A stretch of DNA of 49,233 bases. It comes from Candidatus Pacearchaeota archaeon (lineage in GTDB: Archaea > Nanobdellota > Nanobdellia > Pacearchaeales > GW2011-AR1). Numbering within the stretch: position 1 is the stretch's first letter; the number at the start of each line of letters is the position of its first letter. The position numbers and the translations under genes are program-made. Shown here piece after piece: positions 10,020 through 33,628 of this stretch. The notes below the pieces were generated by a model. It ran no database searches. It was not told where the DNA came from and saw nothing but the letters and a program-made list of their open reading frames with translations. The stretch lies in NCBI GenBank assembly GCA_018304165.1, contig JAGVWS010000011.1, positions 1-49,233 of the forward strand, read 5' to 3'.

Positions 10020-10571
10020 ATGATTAAAAAGATTAAATCCGTTAACGCTTATATCAAAGAATATTTTGAAGCCCATCCAAATCAAGATATAGAACATGGC
10101 AAAGTTGTAGATTATGTTTTTAAGTTCATACCAAAAGCAAGAGACCCATGGAGGGCTGTGAGAATGTTATATCAAAGGGGATGGCTTATTCAAGTAAGAA
10201 AAGGAGTCTATAGAAGAGACCCAAATTATAAAGGACAAGATGTTACAGCCCTTTTTCCAAATGAGATTAGAGAAGAAATCTTTAGGAGAGATAGCTATCG
10301 CTGTGTTGTTTGTGGAAATGGTAAACATAATGGTTATGAAATCCATGCAGACCATATTAAACCACAAGCCAAAGGCGGAACCTCTACTTTAGAAAACGGG
10401 CAGACATTATGCAGTGAACACAATTTGATAAAAAAAAGATATGGTGTAATTGAATTTCTAGGAAAATATTGTAGAAGTATGATTGAGAGAGCAATACAAT
10501 ATAAAGATGCGATTACTGAAAAAATGTTTAGAGAAATTCTTGCAGTATTAAAAAGGTATAAAGCGGATTAG
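10020..10571 (+). CDS. HNH endonuclease, probable type II restriction enzyme
   Basis: A 183-residue protein. The N-terminal half (residues 1-70) looks like a winged helix for DNA recognition (VVDYVFKFIP, YQRGWLIQVRKGVYRR). The C-terminal half is an HNH nuclease: CVVCG zinc knuckle, IHADHIKP with the catalytic His-Asp/His pair, the Asn-containing STLENGQTLC and the closing CSEHN. The gene converges on, and overlaps by 4 nt, a DNA methyltransferase on the other strand, a typical restriction-modification arrangement. A TATA-like GTTAAAAAG about 26 nt upstream fits a leaderless ATG at 10020. The cleavage site cannot be read from sequence. Confidence 0.85.
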   Translation: MIKKIKSVNAYIKEYFEAHPNQDIEHGKVVDYVFKFIPKARDPWRAVRMLYQRGWLIQVRKGVYRRDPNYKGQDVTALFPNEIREEIFRRDSYRCVVCGNGKHNGYEIHADHIKPQAKGGTSTLENGQTLCSEHNLIKKRYGVIEFLGKYCRSMIERAIQYKDAITEKMFREILAVLKRYKAD

Positions 10572-11332
10572 ATTATCTTATTTTGCGACATTTCTCCCTT
10601 AACTTTTTCTAATCTCTTTTTTGCAGTTTCACAATACTCCTTTGAAATATCAATATGTGTAAATTTTCTACCAGTCTTATGAGAAACAACTGCCACCGTT
10701 CCAGTCCCACCAAACATATCTAGAATATTATTGCCTTTATATGAATAAAATTTTATTAATCTATAAATTAATTCCTCTGGAAAAGGTGCAGGATGCCCAT
10801 TTCTTTGTCTTTCTGGTTGAATCTCCCAAAAACCGTCTGAAAACTTTTTAAATTCTTCTGCAGTAATATCTGCGTCTTTTAAATTGCCTTGTAATCTATC
10901 GCCATCTTTAGAAAAGATTAATACATATTCCCATGATGGAACTATATGGGGATTTGCTGGGCTTTTCCAACTTCCCCAAGCAGTCCTTTTAAGCATTGTT
11001 TGTTTATACCAGATTATCTCAGTTCTGAATTTCATTCGTAATTTTCTTAACTGATTTGTAAAATCATGATGTATTGGGATAAAGTCTTTTATGCCTGTTG
11101 GAGCGATATTGAGTGCAAATCTTCCGCCCGGGACTAACACTCTTTGAGTTTCTTTCCAAACATCATTCAACCAATTAAGATACTCTTGATACTCCATTTT
11201 ATCATCATGATTATCATAATTTTTACCAACATTATATGGCGGTGAAGTTATAGCCAGATGAATGCTCTCGCTTGGTATTTTCTTCATTATCTCTAGTACG
11301 TCGCCATTGATTATCTGATTTTCAAATTCCAT
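10568..11332 (-). CDS. DNA methyltransferase (beta-class, m4C or m6A)
   Basis: Modification enzyme of the adjacent restriction system. The catalytic motif IV TSPPYNVGKNYD is near the N-terminus and the AdoMet-binding motif I FGGTGTVAVV near the C-terminus, the order of beta-class amino-methyltransferases; the SPPY form is most often seen in N4-cytosine enzymes, but m6A cannot be excluded. About 254 residues from the start MEFENQIINGD. A longer start at 11353 would overlap the upstream zinc-ribbon gene by 17 nt; the shorter one leaves a 4-nt gap. It follows the zinc-ribbon gene in one transcript and ends convergently on the HNH nuclease. Confidence 0.9.
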   Translation of the reverse strand: MEFENQIINGDVLEIMKKIPSESIHLAITSPPYNVGKNYDNHDDKMEYQEYLNWLNDVWKETQRVLVPGGRFALNIAPTGIKDFIPIHHDFTNQLRKLRMKFRTEIIWYKQTMLKRTAWGSWKSPANPHIVPSWEYVLIFSKDGDRLQGNLKDADITAEEFKKFSDGFWEIQPERQRNGHPAPFPEELIYRLIKFYSYKGNNILDMFGGTGTVAVVSHKTGRKFTHIDISKEYCETAKKRLEKVKGEMSQNKII

Positions 11333-11336
11333 ATTC

Positions 11337-11483
11337 TCACTTTTTTTTATCATTATTTAGAGGTTTATTCCAATAAGGTGACTTGCATTTAGGGCAGACT
11401 ACCGGAACTTCTTCACTTCGTGTTATCCATTCGTGCTCGCATCTTTCACATTTACATTTATATAATTTAATATCCTTTTTCAT
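11337..11483 (-). CDS. Small zinc-ribbon protein of the restriction-modification locus
   Basis: A 48-residue frame with Cys10, Cys12, Cys15 and a CPKC knuckle (Cys30, Cys33), giving a rubredoxin/zinc-ribbon-like fold: KCKCERC and VVCPKCKSPYW. The ATG at 11483 lies about 26 nt from a TATA box (GTATTTAAAG near 11507), so it is probably the leaderless first gene of the operon with the methyltransferase, which begins 4 nt after its stop. It may be an accessory or regulatory DNA-binding factor of the system; that role is inference from position. Confidence 0.75.
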   Translation of the reverse strand: MKKDIKLYKCKCERCEHEWITRSEEVPVVCPKCKSPYWNKPLNNDKKK

Positions 11484-16086: not shown

Positions 16087-16902
16087 TTAATACCTATAGT
16101 GATAGACAAGCAGCCCTTTATCATCTCTCAAGAACAAATTATCTCCGTCGTCATTCCATATGCTGGCGCATGAGTCTTTATTATTCCAGAATAGGTAACT
16201 GGATGAGTCATTTCCCCTCCCGCCGTAGAGGGTTATTGAAGACTGCGGGTTTATTGAAATATTTATAAATTTATAGATATGGGTTGCGGAGTCTTTTATA
16301 AGCCATCTGTTGATATCGCATTTTATACTGCAGATGTTTTTTAGCCTGACAAACTCTACTCCTGCTTTGCAGTCGTTTTCATTCGCCCCGTTATACAATT
16401 CGTCAAGAGCAATGCATTGAGAGCAGGGATTATTGCTTTTTTGCCATATGCCGAGGTTATTATTACGGGCGCTAAGCTCTGCTTTTAAAATATCTTTCTT
16501 ATGGCTGTCATCTCCGTAGTAATAGCTGCTTGCTAGTCCGCGCAAAACCAGTTCTTTGTTAATTATTAAACTGCCAAAGTGCAGATATCCCAGAGTACGG
16601 CCGTATTTGTCCAGCCCATAAGCTTCAAATAGGGAAGAATTGCCTTCAAATCCTTTAAAGAAGTTTTTTGCCTCGTTATAAAGATATTCGTTCTTTTCAG
16701 GCGTATTTATTCCAAGCAGGCGAAATCTTGAGCCATTAGACTCAAAAGTATCTCCGTCAATTACCCTGTCAATTGTTAACTCTCTGAGTTCAACAGGAGT
16801 TTTATTAGCTTCTTCATTATCTTTGATTAAGTACCCTGTCAATATCAATGTAAAAATGATGAGAGGAAGCAGGTTACCTCTTAGGAACTTGATAAAATTC
16901 AT
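16087..16902 (-). CDS. Membrane-anchored thermonuclease (SNase) with lamin-tail domain
   Basis: After a single hydrophobic anchor (about residues 10-27, LLPLIIFTLILTGYLI) comes a staphylococcal-nuclease-like domain with VIDGDTF (metal-binding Asp), RFRLLGINTPE (catalytic Arg and Glu) and KYGRTLGYL (second catalytic Arg), ending in NNNLGIWQ. The final third (about residues 165-271) matches the lamin-tail domain: NEV-like start GVEFVRLKNIC, a WxIKD segment, and RGNDSSSYLFWN...IWNDDGDNLFLRDDKGLLV. The active site should lie outside the membrane, so it probably degrades external DNA or RNA for nutrient salvage or defence. The promoter shares a TATA box with rps10. Confidence 0.88.
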   Translation of the reverse strand: MNFIKFLRGNLLPLIIFTLILTGYLIKDNEEANKTPVELRELTIDRVIDGDTFESNGSRFRLLGINTPEKNEYLYNEAKNFFKGFEGNSSLFEAYGLDKYGRTLGYLHFGSLIINKELVLRGLASSYYYGDDSHKKDILKAELSARNNNLGIWQKSNNPCSQCIALDELYNGANENDCKAGVEFVRLKNICSIKCDINRWLIKDSATHIYKFINISINPQSSITLYGGRGNDSSSYLFWNNKDSCASIWNDDGDNLFLRDDKGLLVYHYRY

Positions 16903-21682: not shown

Positions 21683-22519
21683 ATGAATGGAATAAATGTT
21701 AATGAACTCACTGTAAAGATAAAGCAGAAGAGAACTTTAAGATCTCTTCCGGATTTCTTTGTAAGAAAAGAAATAGCGGAATATTTAGGGAAGCATCCTG
21801 ATGCAGGGTGGAGGGAAGTGTTCAAATTTGTAAGAAGGAAGCTTCACGAGTCCTATGGCGCTTTTCAGACCCGAAGGAAGAAAAAGAGATATCTCTATTT
21901 AGAAGAGCTTGAGATTGTTAAAGAAGAGAATGGAGATAAGATAACAAGAGACGGGGTGGTAGAGGAGATAAGGGAGAGAATTCTTAGGACGAGCGTTTCT
22001 TCAAGAGAGAGGCTTGAAGCAGATTACAAAAATCTCTATTCGCAGATAAGAAGTGTTGTTGGGAAATTTCATTCAATAATGGATCTTGGGAGCGGAATAA
22101 ATCCTGTTTCCTTTGAGCCTGTAGAATTCAGGGACGTGAAGATATACTCTTATGACATTGACAAGAATGACACGGCTTTTCTGAATGATTACTTTAAGGT
22201 TATGGATTTGGACGGAGAGGCAAGGGTATTGGATATTCATGACCTTGATAGAGTCGGAAAGCTTCCGCAGGTTGATGTCTGCCTTCTGTTTAAAGTAATT
22301 GATCCTCTGGAGAGAAGGGGGCATGAATTCTCGGAGATGCTTATAGAAAGAATCCGCGCGAAGTATATCATAGTGAGCTTTGCAACCAAGACCATAACAA
22401 GAAGAGCAATGAACCATCCCCAAAGAGGATGGTTTGAAAGGATGGTAACAAGGCTTGGAATGAAATTCAAGACAATAAGAACGAAGAATGAGATTTATTA
22501 TTTGGTGAAGAAAACTTAA
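21683..22519 (+). CDS. FmrO/Arm-like 16S rRNA methyltransferase
   Basis: A 278-residue AdoMet-dependent methyltransferase. Residues 1-130 form the helical N-terminal domain seen in the FmrO/Arm family; then MDLGSGINPVSF (AdoMet motif I), SYDIDKND (motif II) and CLLFKVIDPLERRG, which corresponds to the family's LLLK-x4-LER segment. Known relatives in actinomycetes methylate G1405 of 16S rRNA and give aminoglycoside resistance; archaeal members may act as housekeeping rRNA modifiers. Which base is modified here cannot be read. Highly basic in the N-terminal half, as expected for rRNA binding. Confidence 0.75.
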   Translation: MNGINVNELTVKIKQKRTLRSLPDFFVRKEIAEYLGKHPDAGWREVFKFVRRKLHESYGAFQTRRKKKRYLYLEELEIVKEENGDKITRDGVVEEIRERILRTSVSSRERLEADYKNLYSQIRSVVGKFHSIMDLGSGINPVSFEPVEFRDVKIYSYDIDKNDTAFLNDYFKVMDLDGEARVLDIHDLDRVGKLPQVDVCLLFKVIDPLERRGHEFSEMLIERIRAKYIIVSFATKTITRRAMNHPQRGWFERMVTRLGMKFKTIRTKNEIYYLVKKT

Positions 22520-22570: not shown

Positions 22571-23155
22571 ATGGATTACAACTCTGAAAAAAGAGAGATA
22601 AAGCTTGACAAGGAATTAAGCAGGCTTGACAAATTGGTGTTAAGGTTTCTCGATGTAATAAAGAAGCATGTCGATTATGTTATCATTTCAGGATATATCT
22701 CCATACTCTTCGGCAGAAGCAGAGCAACAGAGGATGTCGACATATTCATAAAGCCATTAACTTATGACGAGTTTGCTGGATTATATAAAAACCTAAAAAT
22801 GCATGGATTTTGGTGCCTCAACGCCGAAAATCCAGAAGAGATATATAATTACCTTAAAAATTACGAAGCGGCTCGGTTTGCTGAAGAGGGAATGTCAATA
22901 CCTAATTTTGAGATGAAATTCCCAAAAAGAGAAATTGACAAAGAAACTTTCACTGATGATTCAATAAATGTAATCATGCCTGAAGGCACAATAAAGATTT
23001 CTTCATTAGAAAGGCAGGTAGCCTTTAAAAAGTATTATCTTAAGTCAGACAAGGATTTGGAAGATGCCAGACACATTGAAGAAGTCTTTAAGGGAAAGAT
23101 TGATTACGATAAAATTAATAAACTTAAAGTAATTATTGATAATATATGGCCGTAA
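22571..23155 (+). CDS. Nucleotidyltransferase-fold protein, AbiEii/DUF6036-like
   Basis: A 194-residue protein with the nucleotidyltransferase core VIISGYISILFGRSRATEDVDIFI, i.e. the SG-x-G-R-x-T-x-DVD pattern where the two Asp bind metal. This form is typical of AbiEii-like and DUF6036 toxins or tRNA-modifying enzymes. The helical C-terminus (FKKYYLKSDKDLEDARHIEEVF) fits. TATA ATTTAAAAAC lies about 26 nt upstream. It overlaps the next small gene by 10 nt, so the pair is probably a translationally coupled module; a toxin-antitoxin role is an inference. Confidence 0.75.
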   Translation: MDYNSEKREIKLDKELSRLDKLVLRFLDVIKKHVDYVIISGYISILFGRSRATEDVDIFIKPLTYDEFAGLYKNLKMHGFWCLNAENPEEIYNYLKNYEAARFAEEGMSIPNFEMKFPKREIDKETFTDDSINVIMPEGTIKISSLERQVAFKKYYLKSDKDLEDARHIEEVFKGKIDYDKINKLKVIIDNIWP

Positions 23156-23343
23156 TTAAAGAAGAGGGCGCTAAGGAAGAGAAAGAAAGAAGAGTATTTA
23201 TGAAGCCCGGAAAAGACAACCGCGAAGATCGCATGAACTTTGTTAAGTACTGGGCTGAATATGTTAGAACTCATAGCGATAAGGAATGGAGCAGACAGCA
23301 GAATATCGTTATTGACTCGCAATACCCAAAACTGAAAGACTGA
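23146..23343 (+). CDS. Small partner protein of the nucleotidyltransferase
   Basis: A 65-residue hydrophilic protein: a Lys/Glu-rich N-terminus then NFVKYWAEYVRTHSDKEWSRQQ. The amphipathic helix and overlap with the upstream gene suggest a co-translated binding partner. Similar short proteins next to nucleotidyltransferases are my recollection, not a checked match. Confidence 0.6.
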   Translation: MAVIKEEGAKEEKERRVFMKPGKDNREDRMNFVKYWAEYVRTHSDKEWSRQQNIVIDSQYPKLKD

Positions 23344-23519: not shown

Positions 23520-23996
23520 TCACCTCCCATAATTAGCCATGCGCCAATTAACATACTTGTTCTGCGATCTATTAAGGAATCTTAGCACGTATTCATTTTC
23601 TGAAAATACTCCAAAATCATGCGCCTTTTTAGGGTCTGTTCCATCGGTAATCATCAATGCTTCCGCAACCTCATGAGCCACTATTGGTCCTCTAAATAAT
23701 ACAGGGACAACGTCACCCATGAATATAACTACTTCTGCAAGAAAGTATCTCTCAAGCTTTTCAGAATATTCTTCATTTGCAGGAAATATCCTGAAGAAAG
23801 TGTCTCTTGATTTAGGACAAATATTTGTCCGCAAATAAAGTCCTCTATGTGCGAGTATTAAAGAATCACCAACATCATCAATTTTATCAATAACTCTAAC
23901 TCTGTCCAATTCTCTAAAGAAGTAATCATCAATGCAATCTTTGAATAAGGGCTTTCCCGAATGCTCGCGAAAACCCGCTGATAGAATAGGTTTCAT
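23520..23996 (-). CDS. GHKL operon gene 8: unrecognised protein with HExxE-like motif
   Basis: About 158 residues from MKPILSAGFREH. The start at 23996 has an AGGAG about 10 nt before it; a longer TTG start at 24026 would overlap the preceding gene. The middle is hydrophobic and strand-rich (FLAEVVIFMGDVVPVLF), followed by GPIVAHEVAEALMITDGTDP and an aromatic C-terminus. The HE-x-x-E segment resembles the YPILHEQLEL segment of operon gene 5 (25688-26188), so the two may be distant paralogs. Last gene of the eight-gene operon. No function is assigned. Confidence 0.65.
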   Translation of the reverse strand: MKPILSAGFREHSGKPLFKDCIDDYFFRELDRVRVIDKIDDVGDSLILAHRGLYLRTNICPKSRDTFFRIFPANEEYSEKLERYFLAEVVIFMGDVVPVLFRGPIVAHEVAEALMITDGTDPKKAHDFGVFSENEYVLRFLNRSQNKYVNWRMANYGR

Positions 23997-24009
23997 GTAG
24001 CTGAAACTC

Positions 24010-24660
24010 CTATTTCTTCTTCTCAACAGCCTTTCTGACTTTGGACGGCGCTTGAGCCATCATCATCCATGAATCAATGCTCTTGCCGTTGTAAATTGCG
24101 TTAAGCATTTGAGTAACATAGCCAAAACTTGAAGGGTCTGCCTGAAGCCCGGAAACAAGGGCTTGCCTTTCTTCAGCCGTCGCTGTTCTGTAATAATCTA
24201 CTTCTTCGGCGAGAATATCGATAAGCTGCATCACGCCATCGGCTCTTTCTTCAGGCGTTGGAGAATAAACTCTTGCCTTAATAACTAAATGACCTTTCTC
24301 TTCAAGAGTTGCTTCTATAATCCTTGCAGCCCTTCTCAAATCTCTAACGGCTTCTTCTAATCCTGTTAAAGATTCGCCCATTACAGCCCTTCTCAAATCC
24401 TCATTGCGCTGATTGTCGGGATGATTCTCAATATTGAAGCATTCTAATCCGGTAAGCTCATAAAGAATTTTTTTGTTACGCCAGGAAACTTTGCTCAAAT
24501 CTTTAATTCTTCCGGTACGATAATCATAAAAAGTTCCGCTATGCAGTCCGATTTTTTCAATATCGGAAACTTTCTTCCCGCTCTTAGAGAACCACTCGTT
24601 TAATTTTTGGTTCCAGGATTTAGAATACTCCGGAGTGCAATGAACTAAAGAGTCAGTCAT
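24010..24660 (-). CDS. GHKL operon gene 7: unrecognised helical protein
   Basis: A 216-residue protein. The N-terminal 70 residues contain IEKIGLHSGTFYDYRTGRIK, shaped like a helix-turn-helix recognition segment, as in phage-type regulators. The centre (about residues 95-135) is a strongly charged helix (GLEEAVRDLRRAARIIEATL). It starts in an ATGA overlap with gene 6 and its stop abuts gene 8. A regulatory or DNA-binding role is only a suggestion. Confidence 0.65.
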   Translation of the reverse strand: MTDSLVHCTPEYSKSWNQKLNEWFSKSGKKVSDIEKIGLHSGTFYDYRTGRIKDLSKVSWRNKKILYELTGLECFNIENHPDNQRNEDLRRAVMGESLTGLEEAVRDLRRAARIIEATLEEKGHLVIKARVYSPTPEERADGVMQLIDILAEEVDYYRTATAEERQALVSGLQADPSSFGYVTQMLNAIYNGKSIDSWMMMAQAPSKVRKAVEKKK

Positions 24661-25691
24661 AATATTCTCCCTTCAGAATGTTTATCCTTATCTGGATTGT
24701 CAGATTTCTTATCGGCTTGCAGCGTTCCTGTTATTTCATCAAGAGCTCTGCGAAGCTGGTTCTGGTAATGCTTCTCAAAATCAGAAATTTTAGATTCATC
24801 AACATCACGGAATCTTGCCTTAATTGTTTCTAAATTCCATCCTCTATACCTGGCCTGGCAATATTGGTATTGAGTAAGCCTTGGAAGAGGCCTCTTTCTT
24901 TCCTTATCTTCTGATTGTTTTTCTGATGTTTCATCAGCTCCGACGCTTCTCAGTTTCAATACATATTTTTCATAATTCAGGCGGAATCCTAAGAATCTGT
25001 GATTCTTGTAATCAATAGAAAACTTCTGCTTTATTTCTTCATCAGACTTTCCGCTCTCTCTAAGCGAGCAATAAAGGCTATAATTCAAACCAGGAGTGAC
25101 GAATTTTTTTCTTGGTTTTGATTCTTCTTGGCTTGGTTGAGAAATTTGTGCTGGTTTTGAACTTGATATTGACTTTACTGATTCAATTGATTCACGTGCC
25201 TTTCTTCTAGAATAAGCCCTGGAATAAGGACCTATCTGCCTGGGCTTCAAGGGTTTGAACATAGCTTTTGCCTCTTCATGAGTCTTGCCGGAATTCCTAG
25301 CCCCACAATAAGCCTCATAAGTAAGAACTGGACGATTATCTGGCAAGTGAACAATGGCTTTCTCGTGTTCCGGCGTTTCACTTATTGAAGGAGTTGCAAC
25401 AGCCGCCTCAACGCCTGACGAACCTGACGAACTTGATGACGGCGCGGGAATTTCCTCAACAACTTCCTCCAAATCACCAAACTTAATTCCAATGGTTATC
25501 CTGCTATTGATTGTCTTTTCAAAAGCATCAATATCTGCAAGTTTTCCAGAATCATAAGCTTCATTAGCAACGAAGGATAAATAATTTTCAAGTTTTGCTA
25601 AGCCAACGACTCTGGCTCTCGCTAGCAACATTCCAACATAGTACTTCTTTCTCTCATCAAGAATCTCACGCAAAGATTTATCGGAGGTCAT
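24657..25691 (-). CDS. GHKL operon gene 6: protein with three internal repeats
   Basis: About 344 residues from MTSDKSLREIL, chosen because the ATG overlaps the previous stop (ATGA). After a helical N-terminus and a Ser-rich linker come three copies of a module of about 45 residues: LTYEAYCGARNSGKTHEEAK, LNYSLYCSLRESGKSDEEIK and LTQYQYCQARYRGWNLETIK, each followed by a basic, aromatic helix. The consensus Y-x-x-YC-x-x-R-x-x-G-x-x-x-E-x-x-K-x-x-F resembles small DNA-binding modules. Linkers are low-complexity. It probably binds DNA or RNA repeatedly; that is an inference from modularity and basic charge. Confidence 0.65.
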   Translation of the reverse strand: MTSDKSLREILDERKKYYVGMLLARARVVGLAKLENYLSFVANEAYDSGKLADIDAFEKTINSRITIGIKFGDLEEVVEEIPAPSSSSSGSSGVEAAVATPSISETPEHEKAIVHLPDNRPVLTYEAYCGARNSGKTHEEAKAMFKPLKPRQIGPYSRAYSRRKARESIESVKSISSSKPAQISQPSQEESKPRKKFVTPGLNYSLYCSLRESGKSDEEIKQKFSIDYKNHRFLGFRLNYEKYVLKLRSVGADETSEKQSEDKERKRPLPRLTQYQYCQARYRGWNLETIKARFRDVDESKISDFEKHYQNQLRRALDEITGTLQADKKSDNPDKDKHSEGRIL

Positions 25692-26188
25692 TCTAAGCCC
25701 CCCAGAGAGCATAATTCATCCAGATGCTTAAAACTCTCACGAAAACCAGCTATATCTATAGGTTTGTAGTTATGCTCCTCGGCGTATTTTACTAAGTCCC
25801 TGAAGAAATCACGACGGAAAGGAAGATATCTGCGTTTTAATTCTTCCGGAACGGCTCTTAATTCATAATCAAGAGCTCCTAAGCAAGGGCATATTCTTCC
25901 TTGTAAAGATAATTCTAATTGTTCATGAAGAATGGGGTAGGGCCTGAATTCTTCCGGAGTTTCTTCTGATACACCATAAACGCCATTGATTATATCCTTG
26001 GAATCATCTTCAACGGCGCACTGCCAAACAAAATTAGGAAGTTCCGGACAAATGCTCTTAGGCATAACAAAGTAAGCCAGCCTTATCTCTACAGAATCAG
26101 ACTTTACAAATTTTTCTTCTTTAGGAAATCCCTGACTCTCAGCCCATTCACGAGCCAATTCAAAATCTCTCTCGCTGAATGTTTTCAT
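25688..26188 (-). CDS. GHKL operon gene 5: unrecognised protein
   Basis: A 166-residue protein with several Cys (for example CPELPNFVWQC and GRICPC) and a central YPILHEQLEL followed by LDYELRAVPEELKRRYLPFR. Overlaps the ATPase gene by 4 nt at its start and gene 6 at its end. The His-Glu pair and Cys residues could bind metal. It shares a loosely similar P-I-x-x-HE segment with gene 8. No family is recognised. Confidence 0.65.
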   Translation of the reverse strand: MKTFSERDFELAREWAESQGFPKEEKFVKSDSVEIRLAYFVMPKSICPELPNFVWQCAVEDDSKDIINGVYGVSEETPEEFRPYPILHEQLELSLQGRICPCLGALDYELRAVPEELKRRYLPFRRDFFRDLVKYAEEHNYKPIDIAGFRESFKHLDELCSLGGLE

Positions 26189-27804
26189 TTTATCCCCAGC
26201 CTGTTTAATGTGTGAAAGCGGAGAAATTCTGCTTTCTCTAAAGCTTCCCTGACGGAGTCAGAAGTAGTGCCAACTAATTTTCCCTGCCTTTCATTATTGC
26301 GAATCTCATAACTGGCAGCTTCTTTAGCAACTAACTCTACAATGTATCTCAGGAAAGAAGTCTTGTCAGAAGCATTCTGCCTGTTCTTATAATCAGAGTG
26401 AGCAGAATTGAGATAAATAATGGGAGTGCCTAACTGGTCTTCTAATTTGCTTCTAAGATGAGCGTCGCTAATTTGGAAATCAATTGGCTGGGGCTGGCCG
26501 AAAGGAACTGGGCCTCTTGGAACAACTCTCTCCTCAAAACCAGACTCGTCCTCAACAAAAGTTCCGGGGCCAGGATGCTTTCCGGATGGAGTTTTTGGAC
26601 CTCTTCTTCCCCCACCGCCTCCTGATTCAACGGGCTGAGCGCCAATGACTCTGACTAATTCTCCTTCGCCAGACCTTGTTAGGGAGCCTCCCAAACCAAG
26701 CTTCCTTAATTCTTTGAAAGCGTCCTGCATCGCTTCATAAGCCTTTTTAATCTCAATAGTGCTGCTTCTTTGACTGCCTTTCTTTGATAGTTCCGCAACT
26801 ATAGGCCTTAATTTATCCTCAATCTCCTTGATAGTTTCAAACCAGGCTCTATAAGTGCGGCTGTTCTTATCAATGGCATCTCTTCCAAGAACAAGCCTGT
26901 TGAAACGGTCATTGATAAAACCGCTTACTTTACCGGAATTCCAGACAAGATTGCTTTCTAATTCTGACAATTGAGTTAAGGAATCATAAACCAAAACATC
27001 TTTAGAATAAACAGCGACGGCATCGCCAATCGAGTCAGGATTCAGGAATAATACAACTTCCAAACCTCCGGGAGTTTCTTCGTTCTTAATTGGGACTCTC
27101 AAAACTTCGTCCATGAAAGGAGCAGAAGAACCAATTAAGTAGTTAGCTGCCTCAACAGGAGAAACTAATCTTCTCCTGCCATCATCCCTTCCAACGCTCA
27201 TATTAACAATGCCGCTGCGAAGAGCGGGAGCGTATAATTTTTGAAGCCACTTCTTCAAAGCAGGAGTAGTCAAAACTTTCTCCATGACGTGGTCGCCAAT
27301 CTGGTCAACGATTACTCTTGTTCCGTGCTTGAAAACGCCGCCAAAGCATTGCTCAACATCAGAAGCACTAAGCCTGTCAGTCCTGAACTTAACGCCATTC
27401 TTGCCTAATTCCCATCTAACATAAGAATAACCGGCATTGATAGGACCATCATAAGCTCTGGAGATAACATGCATCACTTCTCCAAGAGAGCCAAAGCCGA
27501 GAATTCCCATGCCCTTCTCCCCGCGCTGGTCAGTTCTTTCCCTCTTATCAGAATAACCAACACTAAGGGGAAGACTGAAGAGTTTGTTCTCAGTCATTCC
27601 TCTCCCATTATCAGAAATAATTAATCTTCTCTGAGGGGGAGCAGAAATAACAGAGATATCCTCTATCTGTCCGGAAACTCTGGCATCAAGGCTGTTAGTA
27701 ACGAATTCCCTGATAGAATTCTTCTCATTATAAGCCCTTGAAAGTTCAACAATGGCATAACCCTGCCCCTGACCATGAAACTGAACCATGCCTTCGGAAG
27801 TCAT
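26185..27804 (-). CDS. GHKL operon gene 4: GHKL-type ATPase
   Basis: A 539-residue ATPase of the GHKL (Hsp90/MutL/histidine-kinase) fold. The three ATP-lid motifs are clear: N box IREFVTNSLDA (about residues 30-40), G1 box ISDNGRGM (about 72), and G2 box GEKGMGILGFGSLGE (about 95). A transducer-like middle (RVIVDQIGDHV...LQKLYAPAL) follows, then a Gly/Pro-rich linker and a C-terminal domain beginning IIYLNSAHSDYKNR. Such stand-alone ATPases occur in MORC- and MutL-like systems, including defence loci. It overlaps both neighbours by 4 nt and is the only recognisable enzyme of the operon. Role in this operon unknown. Confidence 0.85.
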   Translation of the reverse strand: MTSEGMVQFHGQGQGYAIVELSRAYNEKNSIREFVTNSLDARVSGQIEDISVISAPPQRRLIISDNGRGMTENKLFSLPLSVGYSDKRERTDQRGEKGMGILGFGSLGEVMHVISRAYDGPINAGYSYVRWELGKNGVKFRTDRLSASDVEQCFGGVFKHGTRVIVDQIGDHVMEKVLTTPALKKWLQKLYAPALRSGIVNMSVGRDDGRRRLVSPVEAANYLIGSSAPFMDEVLRVPIKNEETPGGLEVVLFLNPDSIGDAVAVYSKDVLVYDSLTQLSELESNLVWNSGKVSGFINDRFNRLVLGRDAIDKNSRTYRAWFETIKEIEDKLRPIVAELSKKGSQRSSTIEIKKAYEAMQDAFKELRKLGLGGSLTRSGEGELVRVIGAQPVESGGGGGRRGPKTPSGKHPGPGTFVEDESGFEERVVPRGPVPFGQPQPIDFQISDAHLRSKLEDQLGTPIIYLNSAHSDYKNRQNASDKTSFLRYIVELVAKEAASYEIRNNERQGKLVGTTSDSVREALEKAEFLRFHTLNRLGIK

Positions 27805-28400
27805 AACAAAACCCTCCCTGATTTAGGCAATGATAGAGCAACTTCTAGGTGAGGAGTTGCAAGAATTGGATTTGGGAAGTCTTTGTTTAATTCATCCAAA
27901 GAACTTCTAATTGCTAAAGGATTCCTTGCAGCAATAGCTTCTAAGCAATCGTCATCAGTTAAAAGTCTTCTAACAGTATCAACAGATTTAGGAATATCAA
28001 AGGCATAACCTGCTTCTTCAGCAGTTCTGCCAGTATAATCACTAGGACCTCTGTAAAAAATGCTGAATCGTGCAACTAACAAACCATCATTCATAGCGTC
28101 CATAACAATGTCCTCCATTTCAGAAACAGCGCCAGCAATGTACAAGTCAGGAATGAAATTACGATCGCCGGAGAGTTCAGAGTTCATACCTCTAGCAGTA
28201 AGAGCGACAACTCTTCCATTAGGAGAAACAAGCCTTCTAGTACTACTCAAAGTTACTTGTTCCTGACCAAAAGCCAGTGACTGAATAATGGCTTTTGTTG
28301 GACCACATGCCATAACTACATCTTCAAAAGAGTAAGTCAAATAAGGAGTCTTGAGATCAACGACCAAGAATGGTGCTTGATGAACAGATTGAGAAGTCAT
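27801..28400 (-). CDS. GHKL operon gene 3: unrecognised protein
   Basis: A 199-residue, strand-rich soluble protein (PFLVVDLKTPYLTYSFEDVV, SSTRRLVSPNGRVVALTARG, DLYIAGAVSEMEDIVMDAM). Neither signal peptide nor membrane helix is present. The SPNGRVVALT region suggests a compact beta fold such as a proteasome-like or Ntn-like sheet, but no catalytic set can be shown. It overlaps genes 2 and 4 by 4 nt each, so the products are probably made in fixed ratio and may assemble with the ATPase. Confidence 0.65.
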   Translation of the reverse strand: MTSQSVHQAPFLVVDLKTPYLTYSFEDVVMACGPTKAIIQSLAFGQEQVTLSSTRRLVSPNGRVVALTARGMNSELSGDRNFIPDLYIAGAVSEMEDIVMDAMNDGLLVARFSIFYRGPSDYTGRTAEEAGYAFDIPKSVDTVRRLLTDDDCLEAIAARNPLAIRSSLDELNKDFPNPILATPHLEVALSLPKSGRVLL

Positions 28401-28732
28401 CTTCTTTCAGCCTCCTTTCTTATCCTTTCTATCTTCTCTCTTATTGGCCTAATTCTCTCATAAAAATCCTCAACTTTATCAAAATCTTCTTTGTTTCTTA
28501 TTTCATCATAATGTTTTTCGCACTCTTCAAGTGTTAAGTCAACATCAACACCATCGCTATAACTTGGTCCAGCTTGAGACAAAGTAATATCTTTCTGAGA
28601 GTATAACAAAAGATATTTTGTCTTTCCAAGATCTAAGATATCACTCACCCAGCTATGTATCTCTAATCTCTCTTCTAATTGTCCTTTGTTAAACTCGCTT
28701 GGCTCAAGGATTTTTGATTTTAAGATTTTCAT
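28397..28732 (-). CDS. GHKL operon gene 2: small TLEE-domain protein
   Basis: A 111-residue protein made of one domain that also occurs in operon gene 1 (28729-29532) and in the gene at 43638-43925. The shared pattern is LEE-L-I-x-x-W near the start, a hydrophobic YLLLYS strand, then LTLEECEKHYDEIRNKEDF and a Tyr-rich charged helix. The last 35 residues are a basic/acidic coiled coil. Starts in an ATGA overlap with gene 1. Function unknown; because the domain is reused, it may be an adaptor for the system. Confidence 0.65.
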   Translation of the reverse strand: MKILKSKILEPSEFNKGQLEERLEIHSWVSDILDLGKTKYLLLYSQKDITLSQAGPSYSDGVDVDLTLEECEKHYDEIRNKEDFDKVEDFYERIRPIREKIERIRKEAERR

Positions 28733-29532
28733 TCTAACTTTCCTCCCAATTCTTTCACTAATTTTTCCAGTCTCTCGGCAACTCTTGAGCGATGAGCAAA
28801 GTTATCCTTTGACATGGCGGCGATTCTTCTGAGAAATTCTTTCTCGCTAAGCCCTGCATACTTTCCTGTAGATGGAGAATCATCGCTCGTTCTCTGGCGC
28901 TGCTCATAAAATCTTCCCATGTTATCCATTAAGAAGTAACTTCCGGCATCAACACTCATTTCAATAACGTCAGGAAAAGTGTTCCATCTAAGAACAATGC
29001 ATTTATCATGATTGTCATGCCTTGCAGCTCTGTGAATCCTTGATTCTGTAGTGTTGGGAAAAATACCTCCGACTAATTCAATAATCTTTGGAATGGCAGA
29101 CCATATTCTTCTAAGACTGGCGTCATCTCCAACAACGGCCTTGATTTCGGCCTCTGCTCTCTTTCTTTCAATGCCCCGCTCATATTCAGTTCTGATGTTA
29201 TAAAAAGAATCAGAGTTAGTTATGCGAGCGAATAATGCCTGCGCCTCTTCAAGAGTCAGACCCTCTCTAAGTCCTAAGTAAGACTTAATGCTTTCAATAG
29301 TATCTGACGGGGCGAAGATTCTCTCTCCCTCATCATTCCTTCTGGTCAGGTATTCTCTTGCAGTATACACTAAATGGCAGCTGTTTTCTCTTGGCTTGTC
29401 TTCAGCATCTTTCCATGCCCTTATTTCAAGGCTTTCAAGAAGCCCAAGCTGCCTTGAAGCGACGAGCGCTGTCCTCTCATCGTCTTTCTCCTGCTGGTAT
29501 GTCTTAGTTGTTTCGGCGTTTGTTTCAGCCAT
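28729..29532 (-). CDS. GHKL operon gene 1: TLEE-domain protein with extra C-terminal domain
   Basis: A 267-residue protein. Residues 28-125 carry the TLEE domain (LLESLEIRAWKDAED, LVYTAREYL, GLTLEEAQALFARITNSDSF, then a charged helix). The rest (about 135-267) is a second, strand-containing domain with CIVLRWNTFPDVIEMSVDAG and a helical tail. First gene of the eight-gene operon; the 158-nt gap to the divergent AbrB-PhoU gene holds a TATA-like TTATATG near 29565 for this operon. Function unknown. Confidence 0.7.
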   Translation of the reverse strand: MAETNAETTKTYQQEKDDERTALVASRQLGLLESLEIRAWKDAEDKPRENSCHLVYTAREYLTRRNDEGERIFAPSDTIESIKSYLGLREGLTLEEAQALFARITNSDSFYNIRTEYERGIERKRAEAEIKAVVGDDASLRRIWSAIPKIIELVGGIFPNTTESRIHRAARHDNHDKCIVLRWNTFPDVIEMSVDAGSYFLMDNMGRFYEQRQRTSDDSPSTGKYAGLSEKEFLRRIAAMSKDNFAHRSRVAERLEKLVKELGGKLE

Positions 29533-29690: not shown

Positions 29691-30608
29691 ATGGAAGAAC
29701 GAAAACTGATAAAGCAAGGCGGAGGCGGACTTACAATCTACCTTCCTAAGAAGTGGCTTGACAGGAAAGGGCTGAAGGAAGGAGATAAGGTAAGCGTCAT
29801 TGAAGACGAAGGTTCATTGATTATTGAAGGGAAAGTTAACAAAAAGAACGAAATCATAATTGGCATTAATGAGTCTAATATTAATGACTTAAGACACCTG
29901 CTCACTCACGCTTACAGGAGAGGTTTTAGTAGAATAATCATCAATCATGAAAGAACTGAAAGAATCATCAAAGAAGTAAAGAAAGTTGTAAGTAACGTTC
30001 TGCTAGGTTTTGAATTAACAAAAATTGAAGGAAATGAACTACTGATAGAAAACATCTCCGAGCCAAGCGAAGAAAAATATGAAGTGATGATGCAGAAAGT
30101 TTTTCTGGTAATAAGTGAAACAATGCAATTAATGTCTAACGATTTTTCCAAGGGAAAGTTTGATGATGCTAATGAGATGAAAGAACTTCGAGACCAGTCT
30201 GACAAATTCATAATCTTCTGCAAGAGGCTGTTAAGCAAGAACAAGCATGAAAGAAACCTGCTCTTTGAATGGGAATTTTTGACATTCATGATGGATATCC
30301 AGCACACATGCTACTACCTATACCACTATTGCTATGATAACAAAATAAAAGGCACTAAAGAAATGATAGCATTTAGCAAAGAATTAGAATCATACTTTTC
30401 TCACCTAAAAACAGCCTATAACAAAAAAGACGCAGCAACAGTCCACAAGATCAATGAATTAAAGAAGAAATACCACTTTGGTGACATCACTAAAATGATT
30501 GAGAAATCAAGAGGCAAAGAAAGCAGTGTTTACGCTTATTTTAGAGAAGTATTCAGAAGCATTCAATTATCAACAAGCCCGATAATGTCCATGAGTTTTA
30601 AGTACTAA
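29691..30608 (+). CDS. AbrB-PhoU regulator, copy 1
   Basis: A 305-residue archaeal PhoU-type regulator. Residues 1-50 are an AbrB/SpoVT swapped-hairpin DNA-binding domain (KLIKQGGGGLTIYLPKKW...GDKVSVIEDEGSLIIEG); the rest is the two-bundle PhoU domain (LDDANEMKELRDQSDKFI-type helices). These proteins usually sense phosphate status or regulate neighbouring genes. It diverges from the GHKL operon and could regulate it. A paralog with the same neighbours lies at 45372-46259. The last 31 nt of the coding sequence are repeated after the MNT/HEPN pair. Confidence 0.88.
   Translation: MEERKLIKQGGGGLTIYLPKKWLDRKGLKEGDKVSVIEDEGSLIIEGKVNKKNEIIIGINESNINDLRHLLTHAYRRGFSRIIINHERTERIIKEVKKVVSNVLLGFELTKIEGNELLIENISEPSEEKYEVMMQKVFLVISETMQLMSNDFSKGKFDDANEMKELRDQSDKFIIFCKRLLSKNKHERNLLFEWEFLTFMMDIQHTCYYLYHYCYDNKIKGTKEMIAFSKELESYFSHLKTAYNKKDAATVHKINELKKKYHFGDITKMIEKSRGKESSVYAYFREVFRSIQLSTSPIMSMSFKY
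30569..30599 (+). repeat. 31-bp direct repeat, left copy
   Basis: Starts ATCAACAAGCCCGATAATG and ends GAGTTTT, within the end of the AbrB-PhoU gene (encoding STSPIMSMSF). One mismatch (G/A) from the right copy at 31734-31764. The two copies enclose exactly the MNT/HEPN pair. Confidence 0.75.
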
Positions 30609-30700
30609 AAAACACTTTATATAGCGTGCTTCAGAATTAAAAGATTTACAAACCGCATCAAATAGAAAGCTTTAAATATACTCTTACTCATATGAATAAT

Positions 30701-31264
30701 ATGTTACTCAATAATAAAAAGGTATTAATCTTGGAACAGTTTGTACTAGATTATGATACTAAGAAGTATGGAAGAGATATTGCGAAGAGACTGAAACTAA
30801 ACCAGAAGACTGTTGCTAATATGCTGAACGAACTGGAAAGAGAAGATATCCTGAAATATTCACGGGAAGGAAAGAACAAATATTATTTTCTGAACAAGCT
30901 TAATCCGCACATCAGAGAAATTATTAAATTGGTTGAAGTTGGCAGAAAAATCAGGTTTTTAGAAAAGAATTCTAAATTAAAGGACCTTTTTAATAAACTA
31001 GAAGAAAGAGCCAGCGGGATGGTTCTTATTTTTGGCAGTTATGCAAGCGGGAAGAGCAATGATAAGTCAGACCTTGATGTTTTTGTCATTGGAAGCATAA
31101 AGGATATTAAAGATTTAGAAGATCTCTACAATATTAAAATAAATATTGTAAAAAGCATCAAGAACAAATTTGACAAGAATGAAATTTTTATTAATGAAAT
31201 AATTAAAAATCATATTATTCTCAAAGGAATAGAGGAGTATATCGGTTTAGCATGGCAAGCATAA
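30701..31264 (+). CDS. MNT-type nucleotidyltransferase with N-terminal HTH, copy 1
   Basis: About 187 residues from MLLNNKKVLILEQ. A winged-helix domain (KYGRDIAKRLKLNQKTVANML) is followed by a minimal nucleotidyltransferase: LIFGSYASGKSNDKSDLDVFV with the GS and D-x-D catalytic pattern. MNT enzymes of the MNT/HEPN modules AMPylate or otherwise block the HEPN toxin. TTTAAATA at 30671-30678 puts transcription at 30701, so the upstream Met (30692) is not used. Overlaps the HEPN gene by 13 nt. Confidence 0.85.
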   Translation: MLLNNKKVLILEQFVLDYDTKKYGRDIAKRLKLNQKTVANMLNELEREDILKYSREGKNKYYFLNKLNPHIREIIKLVEVGRKIRFLEKNSKLKDLFNKLEERASGMVLIFGSYASGKSNDKSDLDVFVIGSIKDIKDLEDLYNIKINIVKSIKNKFDKNEIFINEIIKNHIILKGIEEYIGLAWQA

Positions 31265-31734
31265 AATGGTGCTGCGCACAAAAAGAAGGGATTAGGTTAA
31301 TTGAGCCCAGCGATAACCTGGCGTCAGGTTATATGAAGATGGCTGAGGATGCAATAGGCACAATGAACAGAGAGAGAAATTACAATCCTGCCTTCGCAGT
31401 ATCTGCATGTTATTACTCAATGTATTATTCACTTTATTCAATAATGATGAAAATAGGAATCAAATGTGAAATTCATTCATGCAGCCTGGAATTTATGAGG
31501 AGATTTTTGAACAAATTTTATTCTTCAGAATATATTAAAATTATAGAGAGGGCATTTGGATGCAGAGGGATAGCGCAGTATTATGTTGATAAAGTTGTCA
31601 GAAGAGAAGATTCCGATTTTATAATGCTTAAAGCCCCATTTTTCTTATCAAAGTCCAAAGAGATTCTTTCCAAAATAAACCAGAAAGATATTCAGGAAGT
31701 AAGAAAAGGATTATCTTTATTTCTGCCGGAATAA
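31252..31734 (+). CDS. HEPN domain protein, copy 1
   Basis: A 160-residue all-helical HEPN protein: LIEPSDNLASGYMKMAEDA, AVSACYYSMYYSLYSIM and a conserved R-x-x-AQYY (RGIAQYYVDKVV). It has no evident R-x4-6-H ribonuclease motif, so if it is a toxin the active site differs from canonical HEPN RNases; it may bind nucleotides. Partner of the upstream MNT gene; together they form a probable toxin-antitoxin pair. Confidence 0.78.
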   Translation: MASIKWCCAQKEGIRLIEPSDNLASGYMKMAEDAIGTMNRERNYNPAFAVSACYYSMYYSLYSIMMKIGIKCEIHSCSLEFMRRFLNKFYSSEYIKIIERAFGCRGIAQYYVDKVVRREDSDFIMLKAPFFLSKSKEILSKINQKDIQEVRKGLSLFLPE

Positions 31735-31764
31735 TCAACAAGCCCAATAATGTCCATGAGTTTT
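31734..31764 (+). repeat. 31-bp direct repeat, right copy
   Basis: Same sequence as 30569-30599 with one mismatch. Here the frame reads STSPIMSMSFGYYSISDG-stop, which looks like an original 3' end of the AbrB-PhoU gene, suggesting the MNT/HEPN pair entered at this point. Confidence 0.75.
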
Positions 31765-31981: not shown

Positions 31982-33628
31982 TTAACGATTCTTCATCCTC
32001 TCTTCTCTGCGTTCTTTTAAAATTCTGTCAGCAGTGCCTTCGCCCTGCTCTTCATCAAGCTTCTTCTTGGCTTCATAAAGAAGCTTTAGTGTTTCCCATC
32101 TTTCGCGAGCATGGTCATAAGGGTCGTGAAAGGCAGAATTTTGAGGGAACCTTTGCCAATTATCAATAGCAGGATTGGCGTATTTACCTACTGCCTCCCA
32201 TGCCCTTGAATTCTCCATGTCTACAAGTATTGGAGCAATATCGTCATATTTTGTGCTTCCATTAGCCATCATAATTGCTTCATAAGTAGCCCTTGAATCA
32301 AAAAAGGCGGCTGTTGCTGTTCTTGGATCCTCTAACAAATCAAGCCAGCCCTGAAATTCTCTGGTCTGATAGTAATTAATATCGTTAAGATTCAAAGTGT
32401 TAATATTTCTATCTTTTCCACCAGTAAGAAATATACTAACTACTCCGCCTTTCTTTTCAAACTCTACATCATTCTTACTGGATTCTAATTTTTCTTCTAA
32501 AGCTACTTTTGTAGAGTTCAAGTCAACAAATTTGTTCATTATGGGAATTGCACCTAGGGTTAAAGCCGCTCCAATGCCTGCAACAACACACAATCTCTTA
32601 ATCCTGGATATGGGTTTTGAGCGCTCATATTTCTTAAGAGCTTTATTGAACTCATTCTGCAATACTTCGCCGTTTTCAGGCCTGTTTTTTGGATTATAAG
32701 AAAGGCAAGAACGAAGAAATGGTTTGAGAGCTTTAGGGATATCAGCCAAAGAATCTTCAACTAGTCCCTCATATTCATGTTGTCCCATATTCTGAATTGC
32801 TAAAACCGGATCAATAGTTTCCTCTAACTTTTTTTGCGTTGGATATTTGCCTGTTAATAACCTTACTCCGAGAGCGCCTACTGACCAGACATCTGATTGA
32901 GTAGTTGGATGAGAATCAGTTCTAAATTGTTCAGGAGCTCTGATTGCAATAAAACCAATGTTATCCCTCGGGCTCCTGCTCCATTCTTCTGGACTGACAG
33001 TTGTGGCAGTGCCTGTATCTGCAATAACGATTCTTCTGTTAACAAGACCGGCAGGCTGATAATCCATCAGATTAGCAGGATTCAAATCACCATGAACCCT
33101 GTCAAAATCTGCGTGCAATTCTTTAACGCCATGAACAATATCGCCGAGATACTCCATTTGTAAATCTCTAAATAATTTGGGATTAGAATCCGAGCCCCAG
33201 TTCATCATTTCTTCTAGAGTAGCTCTACACTGGGGCATCCAGATAAATGGCTTTTTATCATCATCCTCAAAAACAACTGATGGGAGAACATAACTAGCTG
33301 GCTGAAAACGAACTTCTCTGGTAATAACTGCGTCATCATTAATCACTCTATGTTCTCTCTGCTTCTGGGAAATTTTTGAATGAGAAAGAAGCTTGATAGC
33401 ACCATATTGCCCTGTTCTTTGATCGCGAGCAGCATAAACAACGCCATTACTCCCCTGGCCTAACTTCCTGCCGACAATGAATCGCTGTGAATTAATAACT
33501 CTCGGAGTTATCTCGCCAAAATCTCTGATTGAGCCGGCCCTGATTAATTCTTCATGAGTCATACCTTGATAAGCAGTATCATCAATAAGCTGAAAATTTT
33601 CACCGCCTGCCGATTCGTCCTTAGTCAT
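31982..33628 (-). CDS. Membrane-bound eukaryote-like Ser/Thr protein kinase
   Basis: A 548-residue kinase. The glycine loop KLGQGSNGVVYAA, the Lys in GAIKLL, the catalytic loop HGDLNPANLM (HGD instead of HRD), ADTG in place of DFG and the APE segment IRAPEQFR are present, so the protein is likely active. A single hydrophobic helix (about 345-362, LCVVAGIGAALTLGAIPIM) separates the cytoplasmic kinase from a C-terminal charged extracytoplasmic domain of about 185 residues, the layout of PknB-type receptors. Third gene of a 34283-31982 operon, starting in an ATGA overlap with a small AbrB gene. It faces the MNT/HEPN module convergently; a paralog occupies the same position at 47617. Confidence 0.88.
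   Translation of the reverse strand: MTKDESAGGENFQLIDDTAYQGMTHEELIRAGSIRDFGEITPRVINSQRFIVGRKLGQGSNGVVYAARDQRTGQYGAIKLLSHSKISQKQREHRVINDDAVITREVRFQPASYVLPSVVFEDDDKKPFIWMPQCRATLEEMMNWGSDSNPKLFRDLQMEYLGDIVHGVKELHADFDRVHGDLNPANLMDYQPAGLVNRRIVIADTGTATTVSPEEWSRSPRDNIGFIAIRAPEQFRTDSHPTTQSDVWSVGALGVRLLTGKYPTQKKLEETIDPVLAIQNMGQHEYEGLVEDSLADIPKALKPFLRSCLSYNPKNRPENGEVLQNEFNKALKKYERSKPISRIKRLCVVAGIGAALTLGAIPIMNKFVDLNSTKVALEEKLESSKNDVEFEKKGGVVSIFLTGGKDRNINTLNLNDINYYQTREFQGWLDLLEDPRTATAAFFDSRATYEAIMMANGSTKYDDIAPILVDMENSRAWEAVGKYANPAIDNWQRFPQNSAFHDPYDHARERWETLKLLYEAKKKLDEEQGEGTADRILKERREERMKNR

Follow-up and report, generated by a model that had tools for sequence, protein, structure and literature searches.

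What do eight tightly packed genes of a Pacearchaeota archaeon do together, and which of them belong to one machine? The question is raised by positions 23520–29532, minus strand, of contig JAGVWS010000011.1 (Candidatus Pacearchaeota archaeon, assembly GCA_018304165.1), a stretch of 49,233 nucleotides that was analysed at its full length and is called the window below. The host genome assembly is an 867-kb metagenome-assembled genome (MAG), estimated as 79% complete. We found that the eight genes form a real operon with overlapping junctions, and that its conserved core consists of gene 4 (family B), gene 7 (family A) and usually gene 6 (family E). Judged from sequence comparison, the A-B-E set is a GHKL+S5 ATPase with new conserved partners that are predicted to bind DNA. 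This partnership was present in none of the family libraries searched; at least 14 further DPANN archaea have it as well.

An eight-gene operon with overlapping junctions

The list of open reading frames (ORFs) in the window gave eight head-to-tail ORFs in this region, with lengths from g1 to g8 of 267, 111, 199, 539, 166, 351, 216 and 168 amino acids. With these listed starts, five of the seven junctions were 4-nt ATGA overlaps and the other two measured 25 and 17 nt. A purine-rich, Shine-Dalgarno-like stretch precedes the ATG at 25691 in g6 and the ATG at 23996 in g8; when these refined starts are used, six of the seven junctions are ATGA overlaps and the seventh is a gap of 13 nt. The genes are as follows.

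28729–29532, minus strand: g1, 267 amino acids, first gene, no family
28397–28732, minus strand: g2, 111 amino acids, charged, no family, ATGA overlap with g1
27801–28400, minus strand: g3, 199 amino acids, no family
26185–27804, minus strand: g4 (B), 539 amino acids, GHKL ATPase
25688–26188, minus strand: g5, 166 amino acids, no family, HExxE present
24657–25691, minus strand: g6 (E-like), 344 amino acids from ATG 25691; 351 amino acids from 25712
24010–24660, minus strand: g7 (A), 216 amino acids, predicted XRE-like helix-turn-helix (HTH) protein
23520–23996, minus strand: g8, 158 amino acids from ATG 23996; 168 amino acids from TTG 24026

Codon scores were positive in the proposed frame for all eight genes (0.20–0.39 bits per codon) and negative for all eight in the five alternative frames. 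A Shine-Dalgarno-like stretch was found just 5' of each of genes 2–8, and none was found at the start of g1. Elsewhere in the window, 4-nt overlaps occurred at 2 of 27 same-strand junctions, and the enrichment of ATGA junctions in the operon was statistically significant (Fisher p = 0.001 with the listed starts, 0.0001 with the refined starts). We concluded that the operon is real and not due to chance. An earlier note on this DNA had described an overlapping eight-gene operon around a GHKL ATPase, and the junctions, codon scores and Shine-Dalgarno-like sites bore out that description. The sole product with a Pfam family match was g4 (HATPase_c_3, 4e-11); the other seven had no convincing match in Pfam, PHROGs, PADLOC or, for those tested, NCBIfam. 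An Rfam scan of the window from 20 to 34 kb returned no match.

Gene 4 encodes a predicted ATPase with a new C-terminal domain

Gene g4 contains the N-box (E33/N37/D40), G1 (D65xG67xG69), G2 (G95-E-K97) and GT (G161-T162) motifs, as well as a transducer lysine (K268). The ATP-binding motifs were kept in all 16 B proteins and K268 was near-invariant, as seen in an alignment of 15–16 members with 23–48% identity. Because the ATP motifs and the transducer lysine are intact, g4 is predicted to be an active ATPase. Beyond the GHKL domain lie an S5-like domain, a long helix (residues 316–368) and a conserved C-terminal domain (residues ~432–537) in which N466 and H469 are invariant. The AlphaFold model of g4 had a mean confidence (pLDDT) of 78 and included the S5-like strands; domain names were assigned by reading the secondary structure of this model, which suggests a GHKL + S5 + new C-terminal domain architecture.

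Foldseek matches of the model in the PDB were to Hsp90, with E-values down to 3e-16 and a whole-chain TM-score of ~0.45, and the viral fold matches were Hsp90, topoisomerase II and RIIA. The best NCBIfam match of g4 was the BbrUII/HgiDII restriction enzyme family (2e-8). The defence models of PADLOC 2.0.0 gave no convincing match to the operon proteins, aside from generic GHKL similarity; the best match (0.0018) covered the GHKL core only.

Conserved partners of the ATPase

At the loci of B relatives, the A genes adjoin B on its upstream side, often overlapping it, and encode proteins of 190–310 amino acids that are homologous to g7. The g7 protein comprises a predicted XRE-like HTH at residues 16–70, a helical linker and a conserved C-terminal helical domain. 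It had no match in Pfam, and the profile matches of A to HTH proteins had E-values of 0.003–0.06. In the structural model of A, the first helices, which form an HTH-like bundle, had pLDDT values of ~90, and the helical C-terminal parts were less confident. Fold neighbours of A in the PDB were weak and mostly XRE/cro-type regulators (SinR, 1.9 A over 58 columns). The model and these matches suggest that g7 is an XRE-like HTH protein.

Co-occurrence of A and B was examined in 378 sampled genomes of the class. In these, strong A matches (E-value 1e-10 or better) were found in exactly the 11 genomes with a full-length B and in none elsewhere, and A and B were neighbours in those 11. Because the profile used (A4) had been made from the A genes of those same genomes, the test was redone with profile A2, for which only the five loci found first had supplied A genes. 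A search with A2 of the 256 ORFs around all loci recovered the A gene at nine later loci (E-values 1e-40 to 5e-4) and no other ORF. The contig of L024 starts at B, so that the position of A is out of view; in L083 the A gene is broken where bases are masked or missing, and only fragments of it score.

The second partner, g6, has an N-terminal helical region followed by three HTH-like repeats of ~45 amino acids, every pair of which outscored 500 of 500 shuffles. A 125-amino-acid gene that immediately follows B in L077 is homologous to it. HTH-repeat proteins of one family, E, are encoded beside B in L010, L012, L078, L080, L081, L083 and L104; the next-best relatives of this family, at sub-threshold scores (E-value ~0.005), were g6 and a 372-amino-acid gene of L022. 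In total, E-like HTH-repeat genes were present at ~11 of the 16 loci. The core order in the window is B, g5, E, A, and elsewhere it is A-B-(E); thus, the gene set is kept and its order is changeable.

These comparisons modified two proposals of the earlier note. Its view that seven of the eight genes belong to no recognizable family holds for the family libraries, but comparison suggests an XRE-like HTH for g7 and three HTH-like repeats for g6. Its proposal of a complex with fixed stoichiometry is supported for g4, g7 and g6, whose homologs stay together; g1, g2, g3, g5 and g8 were not found beside the core elsewhere. For the core we looked both for a match to a housekeeping family and for a failure of the homologs to co-occur, and neither was found.

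Two further families accompany the core at other loci. Gene D, a larger gene with methyltransferase-like motifs (GLEGxNFxSY and FDIVFLDYxG, candidates for the SAM-binding motifs of class I methyltransferases; Methyltransf_35 at 0.004, under that family's cut-off), was found at nine loci; it was present in 9 of 14 genomes with B vs. 0 of 35 genomes without B (p = 1e-6). It was absent from the assembled part of the 79% complete host genome. Family C was common to five loci.

Distribution, phylogeny and neighbourhoods of the core

In several families of the class, the homologs of the core genes are found linked to one another. Full-length B relatives were identified by BLAST and profile searches in G066, G070, G045 and G138 and in the MAGs L022 and L024, with further ones in G330, G317, G184, G239, G277, G343, G320, G275 and then G508. 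Candidates L014 and L015 (G016 and G118) were dropped, having the GHKL core alone in common with B. Many other B-profile matches in class genomes, at E-values of ~1e-13, were set aside as GHKL cores of topoisomerase VI-B size and span (~29–180).

In a tree of the 16 B proteins, the window grouped with G330, which belongs to a different family (support 100/99), and the monophyly of families f1 and f35 was rejected (p = 3e-25 and 3e-44). Neighbouring nucleotidyltransferase, L35Ae and L10e genes in L010, L012 and L079 (nucleotidyltransferase alone in L084) had suggested vertical inheritance; the tree rules out strict vertical inheritance at one locus. Because family monophyly is rejected, horizontal transfer, or ancient duplication with loss, is needed to explain the tree.

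Most loci lie among housekeeping genes; their names come from Pfam scans for some and from inspection by eye for the rest. Gyrase genes are near the core in L078 and L082 and ~18 kb away in the window. In L010, L012, L079, L081, L083 and L084 the genes near it encode ribosomal proteins or a nucleotidyltransferase, and L013 has a lysyl-tRNA-synthetase-like gene there. Restriction or helicase genes stand beside the core at 2 of the 14 other loci: in L011, a complete MamI-type type II restriction-modification pair adjoins A-B, and in L084 (5415–7988) an 857-amino-acid SNF2 helicase + methyltransferase fusion lies one gene downstream of B. Such mixed neighbourhoods neither make the core a defence-island gene nor exclude a role in defence.

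A shorter and more distant B-like protein (E-value 3e-24) is encoded at 8142–9512 of L105, a locus where no A or D was found. A cytosine DNA methylase-like gene lies ~5 kb from it.

Genes 1, 2, 3, 5 and 8 are probably local additions

No linked homologs of g1, g3, g5 or g8 were found in searches near other B genes, and g2 had no homolog beside other A-B pairs in a comparison made with the collected loci. The C-terminal half of g1 has one stand-alone paralog in the host genome (L133, 7264–7656, plus strand), beside pilus/secretion-like genes, and a 49-amino-acid charged segment is common to g1 and g2. A search of 68 genomes yielded two homologs of g3 (L131, 4144–4713, minus strand; L132, 2982–3629, plus strand), both stand-alone and unlinked to B. 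Counting the window, g3 homologs were confined to genomes with B (3/14 vs. 0/54), although these numbers are small.

The motifs HExxE...AHxxxVxxE occur in g8, which is possibly metal-binding; one clear homolog with both motifs is encoded at L108 (1309–1722, plus strand), in a genome where no B was found. The homolog search for g5 returned none. The weak HExxE likeness of g5 and g8 had raised the possibility that they are paralogs, which we rejected after 50 of 500 shuffles scored equally high. On present evidence, g1, g2, g3, g5 and g8 are local accessories outside the conserved machine.

Comparison with known systems

The MORC and paraMORC1–5 families were described by Iyer, Abhiman and Aravind (2008), with an S5 motif of GhXhhpXXRhl; ~70% of MORC neighbourhoods have an SF2 helicase, and GHKL ATPases occur beside methylases and helicases (PMC2292703). 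Family B resembles these proteins in its N-terminal GHKL domain with all ATP motifs, its S5-like domain with a conserved lysine, its own C-terminal extension, its sporadic distribution and its tree, which looks like one shaped by horizontal transfer; some core loci are also near methylase, restriction or SNF2 genes. In contrast, the strict S5 pattern of MORC was present in 0 of 16 B members, the constant partners of B are a predicted XRE-like HTH protein and an HTH-repeat protein rather than an SF2 helicase or nuclease, and its neighbourhoods are mostly non-defence. No SF2 helicase, endonuclease or DNA methylase was recognized in the window operon by Pfam, PADLOC or NCBIfam scans. The proposal that g4 is MORC- or MutL-like was upheld for the GHKL+S5 architecture only: the MORC motif is absent, and the nearest solved folds are those of Hsp90.

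Similar partial likenesses linked B to other families. It shares with Hsp90/HtpG a GHKL + middle-domain-like fold, and these proteins are its top profile and fold matches, but B members score at most 28 bits (the L080 member) against a cut-off of 455, have another C-terminal domain, and stand in an operon with predicted DNA-binding proteins. T4 RIIA-RIIB likewise pairs a GHKL ATPase with an HTH protein, but RIIA aligns with B over the GHKL core only (101 columns), differs in length and C-terminal domain, and RIIB is unrelated to A by profile (probability 1.4%). Topoisomerase VI subunit B has the GHKL domain and S5 transducer; however, B scores 20.4 bits against its cut-off of 274, no gene for a cleavage subunit was found in the operon or its neighbours by Pfam scan, and the window carries gyrase. 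The GHKL domain of g4 aligns with BbrUII/HgiDII (2e-8), but at 33 bits against a cut-off of 550 and over residues 31–176 only. Motif, score and partner tests led us to reject membership of B in MORC, Hsp90, topoisomerase VI-B or RIIA. In the open-licence literature on GHKL ATPases in DPANN archaea, we found nothing beyond a topoisomerase VI survey.

A possible DNA clamp and its alternatives

Silencing, repair and DNA topology depend on GHKL ATPases that handle DNA, such as MORC, MutL and the topoisomerases. To our knowledge, the defence and chromatin biology of archaea of this type is almost unknown. We suggest, with a probability of roughly 0.45, that the core works on DNA as a clamp or bridge that is gated by ATP and directed to its sites by A and E. 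Coupled translation would produce B, A and E in set proportion, and A and E would bind DNA and hold B there. Binding of ATP would dimerize the GHKL heads, and K268 would extend to the nucleotide, as the transducer lysine does in other enzymes of GHKL+S5 type; the dimerized heads would close the clamp, trapping or bridging DNA, and hydrolysis would open it. The likely result would be that DNA is compacted or silenced locally, and the DNA so treated is most plausibly foreign or mobile. From these considerations we infer complex formation, DNA binding, clamp action and a role in silencing or defence: head dimerization is proposed because of GHKL biology, and the addressing of DNA by A and E because of the types of partner. 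The clamp itself is suggested because of the precedent of MORC2, a GHKL clamp that compacts DNA (PMC12216690), with DNA recognition shifted here to separate subunits.

Several observations weigh against a DNA clamp. The best fold and profile matches of B are to Hsp90, which acts on proteins. No nuclease or helicase was recognized in the operon, and most loci are among housekeeping genes. Partner D, whose presence would hint at an epigenetic function, was not found in the 79% complete host genome. The HTH assignment of A came with non-significant Foldseek E-values (>= 0.9) and modest profile E-values, and the membership of g6 in the wider family E was sub-threshold (E-value 0.005), its link to L077 being the only strong one.

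We weighed four other explanations. The earlier note had proposed a defence operon, and B could act in a restriction or abortive defence of MORC/paraMORC type, with A and E recognizing foreign DNA and B linking this recognition to its destruction by a nuclease that is encoded elsewhere or hidden in one of the unassigned genes. We judge this unlikely, though it has points in its favour: the patchy distribution and the rejected monophyly of f1 and f35, as for mobile defence genes; the adjacent restriction-modification pair of L011 and the SNF2-methyltransferase fusion of L084; the nucleotidyltransferase-like and MNT-HEPN genes that flank the window operon; and the top NCBIfam match of g4 to a restriction family. 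However, at 12 of the 14 other loci inspected, no gene beside the core was recognized as a restriction nuclease or SF2 helicase, PADLOC offers no fitting model beyond generic GHKL similarity, no nuclease motif was found in the operon, and many loci are beside gyrase, ribosomal protein or tRNA-synthetase genes. A defence operon is possible in the light of L011, L084 and the tree, but the missing model and nuclease and the housekeeping neighbours speak against it. B might instead be a chaperone or remodeller of Hsp90 type whose clients are the HTH partners or other DNA-bound proteins, so that it switches transcription factors on and off rather than clamping DNA. This would accord with the top matches of B, with one B member that reached 7.5e-7 to an HSP90-family model, and with the regulator-like HTH of A. 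We consider it quite unlikely, given that all scores were far under the HSP90 cut-offs (28 vs. 455 bits), whole-chain TM-scores were ~0.45, the C-terminal domain of B had no separate Hsp90 match, and the dominance of Hsp90 is partly due to its abundance in the PDB.

It would be very surprising if the core were a RIIA/RIIB-like pair of phage or provirus origin kept by the host. RIIA was among the best viral fold and PHROG matches, and the T4 pairing of GHKL and HTH proteins is a parallel, but the alignment is confined to the GHKL core, A and RIIB do not align, the loci are chromosomal, and the viral relatives lack A and D. Searches of phage records gave no match for g3, g8 or B, those of plasmid records none for B, and single-protein scans of viral contigs no relatives; the B profile recovered GHKL cores only in viral contigs, in proteins mostly of RIIA size and without A and D. 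We rejected a viral or plasmid origin on these phage, plasmid and viral-contig searches. Lastly, the eight genes could be an unrelated string in a dense genome, with only A-B (and E) meaningful and the rest transcribed together by accident. The lack of homologs of g1, g2, g3, g5 and g8 beside other A-B pairs, and the unlinked relatives of g3 and g1, fit such a string; the chain of ATGA junctions, a type uncommon in the rest of the window, the small-number restriction of g3 homologs to genomes with B, and the conservation of E make it improbable.

The clamp reading can be taken one step further, to a DPANN multi-subunit DNA machine that splits the jobs of MORC among a clamp (B), a site-reader (A), a grip (E) and usually a methyltransferase-like protein (D), and that serves silencing or genome-guarding in cells with ~1-Mb genomes. 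We offer this extension as a doubtful one. The conserved GHKL-HTH partnership, for its part, would provide a separable, three-protein MORC-like clamp that is open to reconstitution. It would also bear on the question of whether silencing of MORC type evolved from DNA-guarding systems of prokaryotes.

Other features of the window

Several genes near the operon were recorded in their own right. Just past its 3' end, on the opposite strand, lies a 194-amino-acid nucleotidyltransferase-like gene (AbiEii-like by eye), which overlaps a 65-amino-acid ORF, the two (22571–23343) resembling a toxin-antitoxin-type pair. At 21683–22519 is an archaeal FmrO-type rRNA methyltransferase (Pfam 4e-21), a family known from aminoglycoside-resistance methylases. 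An MNT nucleotidyltransferase-HEPN pair (30692–31734) is bracketed by a 35-nt direct repeat (94%; 30565–30599 and 31730–31764) and is situated where a MazE-domain gene has its 3' end, an arrangement that looks like the insertion of a toxin-antitoxin pair. The gene at 31982–33628 encodes a eukaryote-like Ser/Thr protein kinase; one of its segments is hydrophobic and probably spans the membrane.

Farther away, a DNA N6/N4 methylase (10568–11353) is homologous to the MamI-type methylase of L011, and no restriction gene was recognized beside the window copy. At 16087–16902, an SNase nuclease domain is fused to a lamin-tail domain, beside a beta-helix protein.

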